DNA from: a virus
Virus record (IMG/VR): IMGVR_UViG_3300028745_000034
Coordinates: 1 to 23,778 of that record
Length of the DNA stretch: 23,778 bases
Reading direction: 5' to 3' (one strand)
Below the pieces are notes generated by a model. That model saw only the letters and a program-made list of their open reading frames with translations, did not search any database and was not told the origin of the DNA. The position numbers and the translations under genes were made by a program. Below are positions 3,052 to 12,052 of this stretch, piece after piece (within the stretch, counting starts at the first letter, position 1; the number at the start of each line of letters is the position of its first letter).

Positions 3052-3059
3052 CGCAGCGG
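3052..3059. repeat. Left 8-bp target site duplication
   Basis: CGCAGCGG lies immediately outside the left inverted repeat and is repeated exactly at 5904-5911 outside the right one. A ninth base does not match. Eight to nine bases is the usual IS1-family target duplication, so the element moved in as one unit. Confidence 0.85.
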
Positions 3060-3081
3060 GGTAGTGGCTCAATTTGAAATC
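3060..3081 (+). repeat. Left terminal inverted repeat
   Basis: Twenty-two bases starting GGTAGTGGCTCAATTTGA, identical to the reverse complement of 5882-5903. The inner sequences diverge at once after the 22nd base. IS1-family ends also begin GGT. Confidence 0.88.
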
Positions 3082-3123
3082 CAGCCGGTGGCGGGTCGGC
3101 CCCGGTTCTGCTAGAGCGAGACT

Positions 3124-3300
3124 ATGGCGAACCGCCCCAAGCGGCCACGAGATCCAGCGCAGCTTGCGAAGTTCGTGGTGGACATGGCCACCGGCCAGAT
3201 CCCGCCCGACAAAGCCCCCGAAGCGCCTGCGCGTCGCACGAAGGCACCGCTGCCAAAGGCTCGGAAGACGCTGGCCGCGCCGCTCAAAAAGCAGGCTTGA
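3124..3300 (+). CDS. Small basic protein of a conserved proteobacterial family
   Basis: A 58-residue protein rich in Lys, Arg, Pro and Ala. Its first half, RPRDPAQLAKFVVDMATGQ, matches a widespread family of small proteins whose members start like RPRDxxQLAKxIVDIATG, some annotated histone-like. The second half is basic and disordered (KAPLPKARKTLAAPLKKQA). Members of this family usually continue into a GGxARAxxLSxxxRxxIA motif; this one lacks it. It begins 42 bases inside the left inverted repeat and its last 17 bases overlap the nuclease gene tail-to-tail. It may be element cargo or bind nucleic acid; the function is unknown. The ribosome binding site is weak. Confidence 0.62.
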   Translation: MANRPKRPRDPAQLAKFVVDMATGQIPPDKAPEAPARRTKAPLPKARKTLAAPLKKQA

Positions 3301-3895
3301 GGTAGAGCCAACTCTTGCGGAGTTTCGCGATCCCGCTGGCGTCCAGCGTGGCGGTTCTGGTCCCTCGCGGGCCTCTGTCATTCTTTCGGAAGTCGGACTC
3401 AACAACCTGTCCGAGGTAGACCTCCGTGAACGCGAGCGGTCGTCTCTGGGTTGCTGGTTCGGTCTGGTTGTCCACGGCGTAGACGAATACGCACATCCAC
3501 TGCTCACGCGCGCCGTGCGAATCCACAGCACCGCCTCCCTTTCGCGTGGTCTTGATTTCAACGCCTTCCGTCCCCGCCTTTACTGAATCTTTCGCGTAGA
3601 CGCCCTGGACGACCAGATCGGGGTGCCCATTGAAGTAGCGGTTCTGCACAAGCGTTCTGGAATGCTTGGCGACGCTCGCAGTCAGCATGTCGGACAGCAG
3701 GCCGGACATGATTGCCGGTCTGATCATGTCGTCGAGGCGCTGCAGCCCCTTCGAGGTGAGTAGCTTGTTCACGTCGAAAAAGAAGTCGTAAACATCCTGC
3801 ATCGCTAACTGGAAATCAGCGACTCGCAGCTCGTGCGGCAATGGCAGATTTTGATTGAACGCCGTCGGGTCTGGCTGCTGGCGAACGAGGGGCAT
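3284..3895 (-). CDS. Putative type II restriction endonuclease, PD-(D/E)XK fold
   Basis: A 203-residue protein with a PD-(D/E)XK signature: GHPDLVVQG (Asp93) followed 20 residues later by GVEIKTT (Glu113, Lys115). A basic Gly-rich loop (RKGGGAVDSHGAR) comes next. The nuclease would cut unmethylated DNA at the site protected by the adjacent methyltransferase. I chose the ATG at 3895, where the conserved-looking part begins (MPLVRQQPDPTAF); an ATG at 3961 would add 22 residues. With the 3895 start it overlaps the methyltransferase by 80 bp, so the two are translated from one message and coupled. The recognition site and exact family are unknown. It could instead be a non-specific nuclease, but context favours restriction. 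Confidence 0.72.
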   Translation of the reverse strand: MPLVRQQPDPTAFNQNLPLPHELRVADFQLAMQDVYDFFFDVNKLLTSKGLQRLDDMIRPAIMSGLLSDMLTASVAKHSRTLVQNRYFNGHPDLVVQGVYAKDSVKAGTEGVEIKTTRKGGGAVDSHGAREQWMCVFVYAVDNQTEPATQRRPLAFTEVYLGQVVESDFRKNDRGPRGTRTATLDASGIAKLRKSWLYLKPAF

Positions 3896-4763
3896 GCGCG
3901 AACTCTGATTCCGCAACTTGCAGCCCCGCAAGTTTTTGGATCGCCGCTCTTGCGATCTCACAGTACGTCTCGTCCAGTTCCACGCCGATGCTGTCGTATC
4001 CGACCGCTACAGCTGCCGCGATCGTCGCGCCACCGCCCATGAATGGGTCGAGAACAACGCCCTCCCCAAGCGGGAGCGCGGCGCGCACGATCTGCCGCAT
4101 GAACGCCTGCGGCTTGAGGTTCGGATGTGGCGAAATGGCCCGCTCCTCCGCGCGCGTCGTCGATGACCGGATCACGTCCGCGAACGGCTGCTCTTCGGAG
4201 AGGCGACGCAGCCCGCCCGTCTTCCACTTGCGTAGGTTGTCCTGCACGCGCCCTTGGCAGGGCTTACGGAACAGCCCCCACGGCTCCCATTGCGAGCGCG
4301 GCATGACCGATACGTCTGGGAATTCCTCGTGAGCGTTTTTGGGGCGGTCTCCCCCTCGTAGCGTCTGGACAAGGCGGATGATCTCACCGCGCTTCTCAAA
4401 ACCAGCGGCGATCAACGGCTGGTAGACCAGATGCGATAGCAGCGGATTCCCGGCGATGAACAGGTGTGCCCCGGGAGTCAGCACTCGCAGCAATTCCGTT
4501 GCGAACTTGGCGAAAAACGCACTCAGCGCAACACGCTCAGGATCGGTGAGCACGGTAAAGCGAGGCAGCGGGGCCCGCTGGCAACCGTCGAACGAGGGCG
4601 GGATGCGCCACACACCCCCACGGCCAGAGCGCAGCTTTCGCTTCTCGACTTCAGAGAATTCCTTGAGACCGTAGGGGGGATCAGTGATCGCGGCGTGGAT
4701 GGAGTTCGGCTTGCACGCGCGCATCCAGTCGAGGCAGTCGGCGCGATGAGTCTCGTAGGTCAC
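3816..4763 (-). CDS. Site-specific DNA methyltransferase (beta class, N6-adenine or N4-cytosine)
   Basis: A 315-residue enzyme that transfers a methyl group from S-adenosylmethionine to DNA. The catalytic motif TDPPYG is near the N-terminus (Asp28-Gly32). The SAM-binding motif DPFMGGGAT is near the C-terminus (about 239-247). The order catalytic motif, recognition region, SAM motif defines the beta class of amino-methyltransferases. DPPY suggests adenine methylation, though N4-cytosine is not excluded. I chose the GTG at 4763, which has AGGAG six bases upstream and overlaps the stop of the regulator gene (GTGA). An ATG at 4817 lies inside that gene and is less likely. It protects against the downstream nuclease. 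Confidence 0.86.
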   Translation of the reverse strand: MTYETHRADCLDWMRACKPNSIHAAITDPPYGLKEFSEVEKRKLRSGRGGVWRIPPSFDGCQRAPLPRFTVLTDPERVALSAFFAKFATELLRVLTPGAHLFIAGNPLLSHLVYQPLIAAGFEKRGEIIRLVQTLRGGDRPKNAHEEFPDVSVMPRSQWEPWGLFRKPCQGRVQDNLRKWKTGGLRRLSEEQPFADVIRSSTTRAEERAISPHPNLKPQAFMRQIVRAALPLGEGVVLDPFMGGGATIAAAVAVGYDSIGVELDETYCEIARAAIQKLAGLQVAESEFAHAPRSPAARPDGVQSKSAIAARAASR

Positions 4764-4945
4764 GGCGCGCTCCTTTCTGCGGCGGCCAGCGCCTGCATGC
4801 CGAGCTGGCGTAACCATACACTGACACCCAGACCCAACTTATCGGCGGCGGCGACAAACGCCTGTTTCTGCTCTGAAGTGACCTTTACCGGCACGATTTC
4901 TTCCTTCCGCTCGGACGCCTTCTTTCGATGCCCAGTCTTGGTCAT
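4760..4945 (-). CDS. Ribbon-helix-helix putative regulator of the R-M cassette
   Basis: A 61-residue protein with a basic N-terminus (MTKTGHRKKASERK), a predicted strand EEIVPVKVT, then two helices (SEQKQAFVAAADKLG and VSVWLRQLGMQALAAA). This is the layout of the ribbon-helix-helix (Arc/CopG/MetJ) fold, which dimerises and reads DNA with its strand. It is first in the operon and its stop codon overlaps the methyltransferase start (GTGA). Position suggests it does the job of a controller (C) protein, timing nuclease against methyltransferase. Classical C proteins are helix-turn-helix proteins, so this would be a different class. Its ATG lies only eight bases after a -10 box, so the mRNA is probably leaderless. 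The fold is likely; the role is inferred. Confidence 0.66.
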   Translation of the reverse strand: MTKTGHRKKASERKEEIVPVKVTSEQKQAFVAAADKLGLGVSVWLRQLGMQALAAAERSAP

Positions 4946-5003
4946 GGGTTCATGTTGTACGCCTACGGGATCGCCTAGTCAATAGGCATACGTTAGCGAT
5001 CCA
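4946..5003 (-). promoter_or_regulatory. R-M cassette promoter with overlapping operator
   Basis: On the minus strand TTGACT (4977-4982) and TACAAC (4954-4959) are separated by 17 bp, a good sigma70 layout. Transcription should start within a base or two of the regulator's ATG. On the plus strand GCCTA occurs at 4961-4965 and 4973-4977, and its reverse complement TAGGC at 4983-4987. The last two form an inverted repeat centred on the -35 box. These are plausible half-sites for the ribbon-helix-helix protein, giving self-repression. No clear promoter for the divergent transposase gene was identified here. Confidence 0.58.
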
Positions 5004-5033
5004 ATGTCAGACCCCTCCTGTACGCTGCTCTCT

Positions 5034-5894
5034 ATGAACCGCTTGAGCCGAGCCGACCGAATCGCAGTCATCCGGGCCTTGGTTGAGGGCAACTCCGTGC
5101 GTTCCACCTCGCGCATGACCGACGTGGCGCGGAACACCATCCTCTCGCTGCTCATGGATGTTGGTCGCGCGTGCTGGGACTACCAAGATCGGACGCTGCG
5201 CAACCTCAAACTCAAGCGCGTTCAGGTGGACGAGATCTGGTCGTTCGTCTACGCAAAGCAGAAGAACGTGGCGACCGCGAAGGCCGCGCCCGCGTTCGCT
5301 GGCGACGTGTGGACCTTCACCGCGATCGACGCCGAGACTAAGTTGGTGCCGTGCTGGATGCTCGGCTCGCGTGACCTCGGGACCGCTACCGAGTTCATCC
5401 AAGACCTCGCGGGCCGTATCGCCACTCGCATTCAACTCACCACCGACGGCCACAAGCCCTACGTCAACGCCGTTGAGGATGCCTTCGGCGCGGACGTGGA
5501 CTTCGCCCAGCTCGTGAAGCTCTACGGCGCGGAGCGGCCCGGCGAGGCTCGCTACTCGTGCGCCAACTACGTCTCGTGCCGCAAGGTGGCCGTGACCGGC
5601 AACCCGGACGAGAAGCACATCAGCACGAGCTACGTCGAGCGCCAGAACCTCACGATGCGGATGTCGATGCGGCGCTTCACTCGCTTGACCAACGCATTCT
5701 CGAAGAAGGCAGAGAATCACGCCGCGATGGTTGCGCTCTACTTCATGCACTACAACTTCGCTCGCGTTCACCAGACGCTTCGGGTTACTCCGGCGATGGC
5801 CGCTGGCGTCGCCGATCACGTTTGGGAGGTTGAGGAGATTGTTGCACTCGTGGAAGCTCAAGAGGCCGTCTCGGATGCCCTGATTTCAAATTGA
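5034..5894 (+). CDS. IS1-family DDE transposase
   Basis: A 286-residue transposase read from one uninterrupted frame; it lacks the insA/insB frameshift of classical IS1. The N-terminus has a helix-turn-helix (about 20-45). The DDE acidic triad is visible as VDEIWSF (Asp66), TTDGH (Asp138) and YVERQNLTMRM (Glu202), followed by the IS1-like RRFTRLTNAFSKKAENH segment. It binds the 22-bp ends and moves the element. I chose the ATG at 5034 because relatives begin like MNRL; an ATG at 5004 would add ten residues. Its stop codon lies inside the right inverted repeat, as is common in compact IS elements. The gene appears intact, so the element may still be mobile. Confidence 0.9.
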   Translation: MNRLSRADRIAVIRALVEGNSVRSTSRMTDVARNTILSLLMDVGRACWDYQDRTLRNLKLKRVQVDEIWSFVYAKQKNVATAKAAPAFAGDVWTFTAIDAETKLVPCWMLGSRDLGTATEFIQDLAGRIATRIQLTTDGHKPYVNAVEDAFGADVDFAQLVKLYGAERPGEARYSCANYVSCRKVAVTGNPDEKHISTSYVERQNLTMRMSMRRFTRLTNAFSKKAENHAAMVALYFMHYNFARVHQTLRVTPAMAAGVADHVWEVEEIVALVEAQEAVSDALISN

Positions 5895-5903
5895 GCCACT
5901 ACC
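5882..5903 (-). repeat. Right terminal inverted repeat
   Basis: Reverse complement of the left 22-bp end with no mismatch. It contains the last codons and the stop of the transposase gene (TGA at 5892-5894). Confidence 0.88.
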
Positions 5904-5911
5904 CGCAGCGG
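5904..5911. repeat. Right 8-bp target site duplication
   Basis: CGCAGCGG, identical to 3052-3059, directly outside the right inverted repeat. The pair marks the insertion point. Confidence 0.85.
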
Positions 5912-10949: not shown

Positions 10950-11291
10950 ATGGCGACTTCCGCCAATAACGACGGCCGCGTCTTTGTCTTCGGCAGCAAT
11001 CTGCAGGGCGCGCACGGCGCTGGCGCGGCGGCATTCGCGCTCGAGCACCGCGGCGCTGTGTACGGCGAGGGCATCGGCCACCACGGCCAGAGCTACGCCA
11101 TTCCCACGATGCACGGGCGCGAGTTCCTTGCCCAGCACGTCGCTATCTTCCTCGACTACGCGCGCGCCAATCCGCAGCTGCGATTCGAGGTCACCAAGAT
11201 CGGCTGCGGCATCGCCGGCTTCACCGAGGCGCAAGTCGCGCCGCTCTTTGCTGACGCTCCCACCAACTGCGATTTGCCCGAGGGCTGGTAA
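10950..11291 (+). CDS. A1S_2505-family phage non-structural protein
   Basis: A 113-residue protein with the family signature VFVFGSNLQGAHGAGAAAFA, followed by GEGIGHHGQSYAIPT and FEVTKIGCGIAGF. These glycine-rich loops recall macro-domain-like nucleotide-binding folds, but no biochemical role is established. The length fits the family. It follows the hairpin terminator, and no strong ribosome binding site is visible. Its stop overlaps the next gene's ATG (TAATG), so the two are coupled. Confidence 0.85.
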   Translation: MATSANNDGRVFVFGSNLQGAHGAGAAAFALEHRGAVYGEGIGHHGQSYAIPTMHGREFLAQHVAIFLDYARANPQLRFEVTKIGCGIAGFTEAQVAPLFADAPTNCDLPEGW

Positions 11292-12052
11292 TGACCACCA
11301 AGACGAAGAAGACCGCCAAGAAGCTCGCTCCGAAGAAGAAGACCACCACAGCGCTTGCGCCCGGGAAGGTGCTCGTGCTCCGCACGTGCGCCGCGGATAT
11401 GTCCGCGCACGGCGGATTCATCTGGCCGAAGAGCGGGCCGATCAGCGCGCCGGACTGGAAGCCGACGAAGGAGTGCGGCGCCGGCCTGCACGGCCTGCTC
11501 TGGGGCGAGGGCAACGGGGATGTGTTGAGCTGGGCTGTGGACGCGGCCTGGCTGGTGGTCGAGGTGGAGAAGGACAAGATCATCGACCTCGATGGCAAGG
11601 TGAAGTTCCCCTCGTGCGTGGTCGTCCATTGCGGCAACCAGAAGAGCGCGACGGAATATCTCGCTGCTCACGGTGCTGAGGGCCGCGCGATCACCGGCGG
11701 CACGGCGACGGCGGGCGACCGCGGCACGGCGACGGCGGGCGACGGCGGCACGGCGACGGCGGGCTACCGCGGCACCGCGACGGCGGGCCCCCGCGGCACG
11801 GCGACGGCGGGCGACGGCGGCACGGCGACGGCGGGCGAAGGCGGCACGGCGACGGCGGGCGACCGCGGCACGGCGACGGCGGGCGACGGCGGCACGGCGA
11901 CGGCGGGCGACGGCGGATCTCTGCTCCTCAAGTGGTGGGACGGCAGCACCGGCCGCTACCGCGCCTGCCTGGGAGAGGTCGGCATCGACGGAATCAAGGC
12001 GAACGTGAAGTACCGCGTCGAGAGCGGCAAGCTCGTCGAGGTGAAGCCGTGA
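11291..12052 (+). CDS. DUF7666-type protein with nine octapeptide repeats
   Basis: A 253-residue protein. A Lys/Thr-rich start (TTKTKKTAKKLAPKKKTTTA) leads into a domain at about 25-125 (LRTCAADMSAHGGFIWP ... CGAGLHGLLWGEG ... VVVHCGNQ) that resembles DUF7666. Residues 137-208 are nine perfect-length copies of GTATAGxx (DR, DG, YR, PR, DG, EG, DR, DG, DG). The 8-residue period and the TAG core resemble ice-nucleation-protein repeats, which fold as a beta-solenoid. A C-terminal segment (LLLKWWDGSTGRYRACLGEV) closes it. The function is unknown; an extended rod or binding surface is a reasonable guess. It starts at the TAATG overlap and ends in a GTGA overlap with the next gene. Confidence 0.75.
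   Translation: MTTKTKKTAKKLAPKKKTTTALAPGKVLVLRTCAADMSAHGGFIWPKSGPISAPDWKPTKECGAGLHGLLWGEGNGDVLSWAVDAAWLVVEVEKDKIIDLDGKVKFPSCVVVHCGNQKSATEYLAAHGAEGRAITGGTATAGDRGTATAGDGGTATAGYRGTATAGPRGTATAGDGGTATAGEGGTATAGDRGTATAGDGGTATAGDGGSLLLKWWDGSTGRYRACLGEVGIDGIKANVKYRVESGKLVEVKP
11699..11914 (+). repeat. 24-bp tandem repeat, nine units
   Basis: Nine in-frame 24-bp units of the type GGCACGGCGACGGCGGGCGA plus two variable codon positions. All differences between copies fall in the last two codons of the unit, except one synonymous change in unit four. Near-identity at DNA level points to recent slippage or recombination, so copy number should vary between relatives. Confidence 0.92.

Follow-up and report, generated by a model that had tools for sequence, protein, structure and literature searches.

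The window analysed here (the whole 23,778-nt stretch, positions 1 to 23,778 of virus record IMGVR_UViG_3300028745_000034) carries integrase, tail, NlpC/P60 and chitinase-type lysis genes and is a phage-derived contig; its tail protein gave no tblastn match among phages. Within it lies an intact transposable element of the IS1 family, and the cargo of this element is a three-gene operon, transcribed away from the transposase, for a small protein very likely of the ribbon-helix-helix (RHH) fold, a DNA methyltransferase (M) and a restriction endonuclease (R), in that order (Table 1). Both the identity of the element and the placing of the operon as its cargo are strongly supported. This transposon context was absent from an earlier reading of the same DNA (hereafter the sequence-only reading).

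Table 1. Features of the element and its R-M operon, in window positions.
Feature	Position	Strand	Basis or remark
Target-site duplication CGCAGCGG, left copy	3052..3059		8/8 identical to right copy
IS1-family transposable element with R-M cargo	3060..5903		2,844 bp, intact; perfect ends, 8-bp duplication, intact transposase
Left terminal inverted repeat GGTAGTGGCTCAATTTGAAATC	3060..3081	+	All 22 bases pair with the right end
Basic accessory ORF of the element, 58 aa ('histone H1'-like)	3124..3300	+	Relatives adjoin IS1-family transposases (L104, L103, others)
Restriction endonuclease, PD-(D/E)XK, 203 aa	3284..3895	-	Likely start ATG 3895; alignment, AlphaFold, Foldseek, PADLOC
Beta-class DNA adenine-N6 methyltransferase	3816..4763	-	GTG start; DPPY then FMGGG; Pfam N6_N4_Mtase 3.6e-17
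RHH protein, 61 aa, first gene of the operon	4760..4945	-	ATG 4945, stop 4760; Pfam, AlphaFold2, Foldseek
Sigma70-like promoter TTGACT-N17-TACAAC	4954..4982	-	9/12 consensus matches; 8 nt 5' of RHH ATG
Inverted repeat B, GTATGCCTA(17)TAGGCGTAC, candidate operator	4957..4991		One mismatch; overlaps -35 and edge of -10
Inverted repeat A, GGATCGC(21)GCGATCC, candidate operator	4968..5002		Shuffle test
IS1-family transposase	5034..5894	+	NCBIfam transpos_IS1 5.2e-15; Pfam DDE_Tnp_IS1 2.8e-7; divergent from RHH operon
Right terminal inverted repeat	5882..5903	-	Pairs with left end, 22/22
Target-site duplication CGCAGCGG, right copy	5904..5911		8/8 identical to left copy

The transposase was identified as IS1-type by profiles and by alignment with relatives 54-64% identical to it, in which the context of the D, D and E residues is conserved (D..D..E). 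Its NCBIfam score was 55.9, below the 100-bit cutoff, and it therefore belongs to a divergent branch of the family. The inverted ends start with GGT, and the length of the target duplication falls within the 8-9 bp of IS1-family elements. The C-terminal GGKARA..RKEIAKKAA..RW motif of the accessory ORF is apparently truncated.

Viral contigs, plasmids and alphaproteobacterial genomes contained relatives of the element, most of them with like ends (GGTAGTG..TCAGTTTGAAAT) and 8-bp duplications, yet with other cargo; ends and a duplication matching at 7/8 or better were recognisable at 41 of 80 viral loci. The cargo of these relatives included XRE/M78, P63C, SocA, ClpP-like, HigB and acetyltransferase genes and one other DNA methylase, and PADLOC labelled some of it PD-Lambda-2, RmrA/RmrT or capP/capH, names that record matches to models and thus predicted functions. 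Elements of this clade (window 3060-5903; L101-L108, L144-L163 and L164-L243) measure about 1.3-5.6 kb and carry interchangeable toxin-antitoxin or defence-like modules adjoining the small basic GGKARA..RKEIAKKAA..RW ORF. One of them, at L190 6922-8544, combines a P63C-like gene with a different DNA methylase, of 540 aa. In L100, L102, L105 and L108 a transposase promoter (TTGAC-17-TATNNT) ends about 6-9 nt 5' of the ATG, which suggests from sequence that transposase mRNAs are near-leaderless in this clade; the window transposase is without the strong promoter of this form present in several relatives about 6 nt from the ATG. In the literature searched, no description turned up of an IS1 clade with many toxin-antitoxin or defence passengers. 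Transporter IS (tIS) elements likewise combine a single IS-type transposase, short inverted ends, a target duplication and unrelated passenger genes. They differ in that the passenger of the window element is a complete R-M operon and in that its IS1 clade bears many sorts of toxin-antitoxin and defence passengers.

The methyltransferase has DPPY near its start and FMGGG near its end, the catalytic motifs from which its activity is predicted, and matched the PADLOC MTase_II model at 8.9e-114. The nuclease gene runs in the same direction and overlaps the 3' end of the methyltransferase gene by 80 nt. In an alignment of the nuclease with 60 relatives PD..ExK was invariant, and the PADLOC REase_II model was touched by 9 of 10 aligned members. 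An AlphaFold model, for which the plasmid-collection rows were left out of the alignment, reached a pLDDT of 91, and in Foldseek it matched NaeI (prob 1.00, E 9.5e-4), followed by EcoRV. The predicted fold and the PD..ExK motif are shared with these two enzymes; unlike them, the window nuclease could not be linked by sequence to any solved structure (no match in a PDB sequence search), and it had no Pfam or NCBIfam match. Since a methyltransferase is thus joined to a PD..ExK nuclease of NaeI/EcoRV fold, the assignment as a predicted type II R-M operon, headed by one additional gene, is strongly supported.

The 61-residue protein had been read as RHH from its letters, and profile and structure comparisons confirmed this. 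Its match to the NikA-like family PF21983 of Pfam (E 9.3e-6, 26.1 bits) lies just below the 27-bit cutoff. The AlphaFold2 model (single-sequence, pLDDT 77.8) is RHH-like, with an unstructured or extended N-terminus and helices at residues 24-37 and 41-58; the protein has the RHH succession of strand and two helices within 40-60 residues, the strand being a region extended in this model, which is of the monomer, and the RHH strand forming in the dimer. The leading Foldseek matches in the PDB were nearly all RHH proteins (ParG, Rv0298, the NikA N-terminal fragment, Arc, PutA, AtaR and CopASO). With E values of 0.4-2 and prob up to 0.91 they are singly non-significant, but they are uniform, and a lack of significance in single matches is expected for a protein of 61 residues. 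From the matches taken together the modelled fold is very likely RHH. A PDB sequence search with the protein gave no match. The position of the gene at the head of the operon and its coupling to the methyltransferase held up as well: GTGA at 4760-4763 contains both the stop codon of the RHH gene and the GTG start of the methyltransferase, and AAAGGAG lies 6 nt 5' of the GTG.

A promoter placing the transcript start almost at the RHH ATG, with GCCTA/TAGGC repeats over its -35 box, had also been proposed, and both points stand in part. The promoter is present and close to the ATG, with a modest match to consensus: 5.6% of dinucleotide shuffles of the intergenic stretch scored as high, and a stricter scan did not list it because its -10 is without the final T. 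No Shine-Dalgarno sequence was found 5' of the RHH ATG; with the promoter only 8 nt away, it is therefore plausible from the sequence that the transcript is leaderless or near-leaderless. GCCTA/TAGGC does occur three times, and that word did so in 3 of 2000 shuffles; some 5-mer reached three copies in 32% of shuffles, so the repeats are weaker than they appear, and their count was rejected as operator evidence by itself. The interleaved inverted repeats A and B are better-supported candidates than the GCCTA/TAGGC triple. Two such repeats were matched in 26/2000 shuffles (1.3%), and jointly they cover the -35 and extend to the -10 of the RHH promoter.

The nuclease family is widespread. A genome scan confirmed 429 relatives, of which 80 were kept, and further ones were found in plasmids and viral contigs; those plasmid records that annotate the gene all call its product 'hypothetical protein'. 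Loci were chosen by nuclease similarity and include near-duplicates and loci truncated at contig ends, so the figures that follow are counts and not frequencies. A methyltransferase neighbours the nuclease at 95 of 97 loci, the two genes being convergent at 91 and in the same direction, as in the window, at only 4. Most of the methyltransferases (74/96) carry a fused N-terminal helix-turn-helix (HTH)-like domain, detected with a profile built in this analysis and matching Pfam only weakly (weak DUF7669). At three loci (L010, L011 and L012) this domain is instead encoded by a separate small gene directly 5' of the methyltransferase gene, which it overlaps by 4 nt in L010 and L012.

The RHH gene showed no such association. 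By tblastn no relative of the 61-residue protein was found near the nuclease at the 97 loci, or anywhere in the plasmids, phages and viral contigs searched, a sequence-based survey that a strongly diverged RHH protein could escape; among roughly 750 genomes sampled, no more than 5 had a match, of about 35%, and in none of the five was it seen next to R-M genes. A conserved pairing of RHH and methyltransferase genes was accordingly rejected for genome contigs, viral contigs, plasmids and phages alike, and so was the gene as a component of the IS, none having been found among the element's relatives. The proposal of the sequence-only reading that the protein represents a new class of R-M controllers, for which conserved association with other methyltransferases had been named as a check and the want of any with R-M genes as a refutation, thus finds no support: judged by these comparisons, the RHH-M-R arrangement is a single variant that does not so far amount to a controller class. 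An RHH controller of any R-M system was likewise not met in the literature searched, which leaves out most subscription journals.

In a tree of the methyltransferases, that of the window groups with L003, L245 and L250 (support 93/91), all of them virus- or transposon-borne and without the HTH-like domain, and a clade of all the fused methyltransferases (97/96) is placed beside this group. Replacement of the fused domain of a direct ancestor by the RHH protein finds no support, the window methyltransferase lying outside the fused clade; what is supported is that the two occupy the same position. The closest methyltransferases (L003, L245 and L246) have neither regulator and are apparently intact, so that this branch can do without one. 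Related methyltransferases also lie in IS1595-type elements, with the nuclease in L003 (4924-7696) and without it in L246 (4876-7473), and at least two transposon families have therefore moved this gene.

With moderate confidence we take the 61-residue protein to be a dedicated autorepressor of the RHH-M-R type II cassette that the element carries. Autorepression is inferred because the protein stands where the family has its DNA-binding domain, fused or separate, and because operator-like repeats lie over its promoter. Against this stand the modest promoter match and the close relatives without a regulator; nor do the other loci of this R-M family, at none of which an RHH relative was found, lend comparative weight to the operator or to regulation. 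In such a scheme RHH dimers would bind repeats A and B across the -35 and -10 of their own promoter. In a newly entered cell, where repressor is absent, the promoter would fire; methyltransferase would be made first, and nuclease from the distal, overlapping gene. As RHH protein built up, methyltransferase and nuclease would both be kept low, a burst followed by a hold. The cassette might then stabilise the element by addiction or guard against phage. DNA binding and repression by the protein, and either role of the cassette, are predictions of this scheme.

The gene might instead have been swept up with the cargo, a stray of relaxosome (NikA/MobC-like) or antitoxin type that does nothing more than couple translation of the methyltransferase. 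That it was found only once, that its best Pfam match is a NikA-like mobilisation family and that close methyltransferase relatives do without it are what such a gene would lead one to expect. We nevertheless consider this unlikely: the gene is intact, in frame, first in the operon and joined to the next by a 4-nt overlap, the operator-like repeats lie exactly over its promoter, and no relaxase or toxin gene adjoins it among the window ORFs. Less probable again is a regulator of the element as a whole, chiefly repressing the divergent transposase through the shared intergenic region and affecting R-M secondarily. The repeats do lie between the two divergent genes, and the want of a strong transposase promoter would fit; however, they sit over the RHH promoter and away from the start of the transposase gene, and no RHH gene was seen in the element's relatives, whose cargo differs.

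C proteins, the usual controllers of type II R-M systems of the PvuII, EcoRV, Csp231I and Esp1396I types, are helix-turn-helix proteins that activate as well as repress and are required for nuclease expression, and in their classic layout C and R share one transcript. The window operon resembles these systems in its small first-gene regulator and in the putative regulator sites across its promoter, and it may do so in a near-leaderless start (a promoter-like -10 ending 8 nt 5' of an ATG without a Shine-Dalgarno sequence); it differs in that the regulator is RHH and not helix-turn-helix and in that M stands between regulator and R. That an Arc-like protein here performs the timing task of a C protein, delaying nuclease relative to methyltransferase, as the sequence-only reading had it, is very improbable and went unsupported: near-leaderless C-protein transcripts are documented (PMC4824078) and the regulator does lie upstream of R in one putative transcript, but with the methyltransferase between them in one operon transcriptional separation needs a second promoter, and in cassettes of this kind the RHH regulators that are known act purely as repressors (PMC3874152). 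Since R follows M in the same direction, an autorepressor would lower both together, and a delay of R is not obvious. R-M systems autorepressed by the methyltransferase (EcoRII, SsoII and Ecl18kI type) share a DNA-binding domain ahead of the methyltransferase, as do most relatives of the window enzyme with their fused HTH-like domain; the window methyltransferase has no fused domain and is preceded by a separate protein of another fold.

By analogy, the nearest working model for an autorepressor here would be not the C protein and rather the three-gene layout of omega-epsilon-zeta and paaR-paaA-parE, in which a repressor gene is followed by antidote and then toxin and the regulators strictly repress; omega, itself RHH, has a binding site inside the promoter of its own gene (PMC3874152). 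The window operon has the same layout, with a small RHH gene for a candidate repressor first, antidote and toxin following in one direction and one operon, and repeats over the first promoter as candidate operators, where the binding sites of the known systems lie (PMC3874152). The likeness is one of layout only, antidote and toxin in the window being a methyltransferase and a restriction nuclease. Somewhat more tentatively than for autorepression itself, we suggest that the RHH protein may repress the R-M genes much as in omega-epsilon-zeta, and that the cassette may be one among many exchangeable addiction or defence modules of this IS1-family clade, with R-M and toxin-antitoxin genes filling a single cargo slot. 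If the protein does repress its operon, an R-M cassette would, within the literature searched, be governed by a repressor of the sort that governs three-gene toxin-antitoxin cassettes, which would provide a concrete bridge for the idea of R-M and toxin-antitoxin systems as interchangeable addiction modules. The setting sharpens this point, the same IS1-family clade bearing at other loci XRE/M78, P63C, SocA-type and further cassettes of the toxin-antitoxin or defence kind.

Two further observations concern the window outside the element. A P63C-domain gene (1557-2591, +) and an M78-peptidase ORF (655-1515, +) lie just beyond its left end, and similar genes are IS1-family cargo in L103, L161 and L190; an older or decayed element may therefore once have stood at this place. 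An ORF at 11291-12052 (+) encodes tandem GTATAGDRG/GTATAGDGG repeats of about nine residues each.
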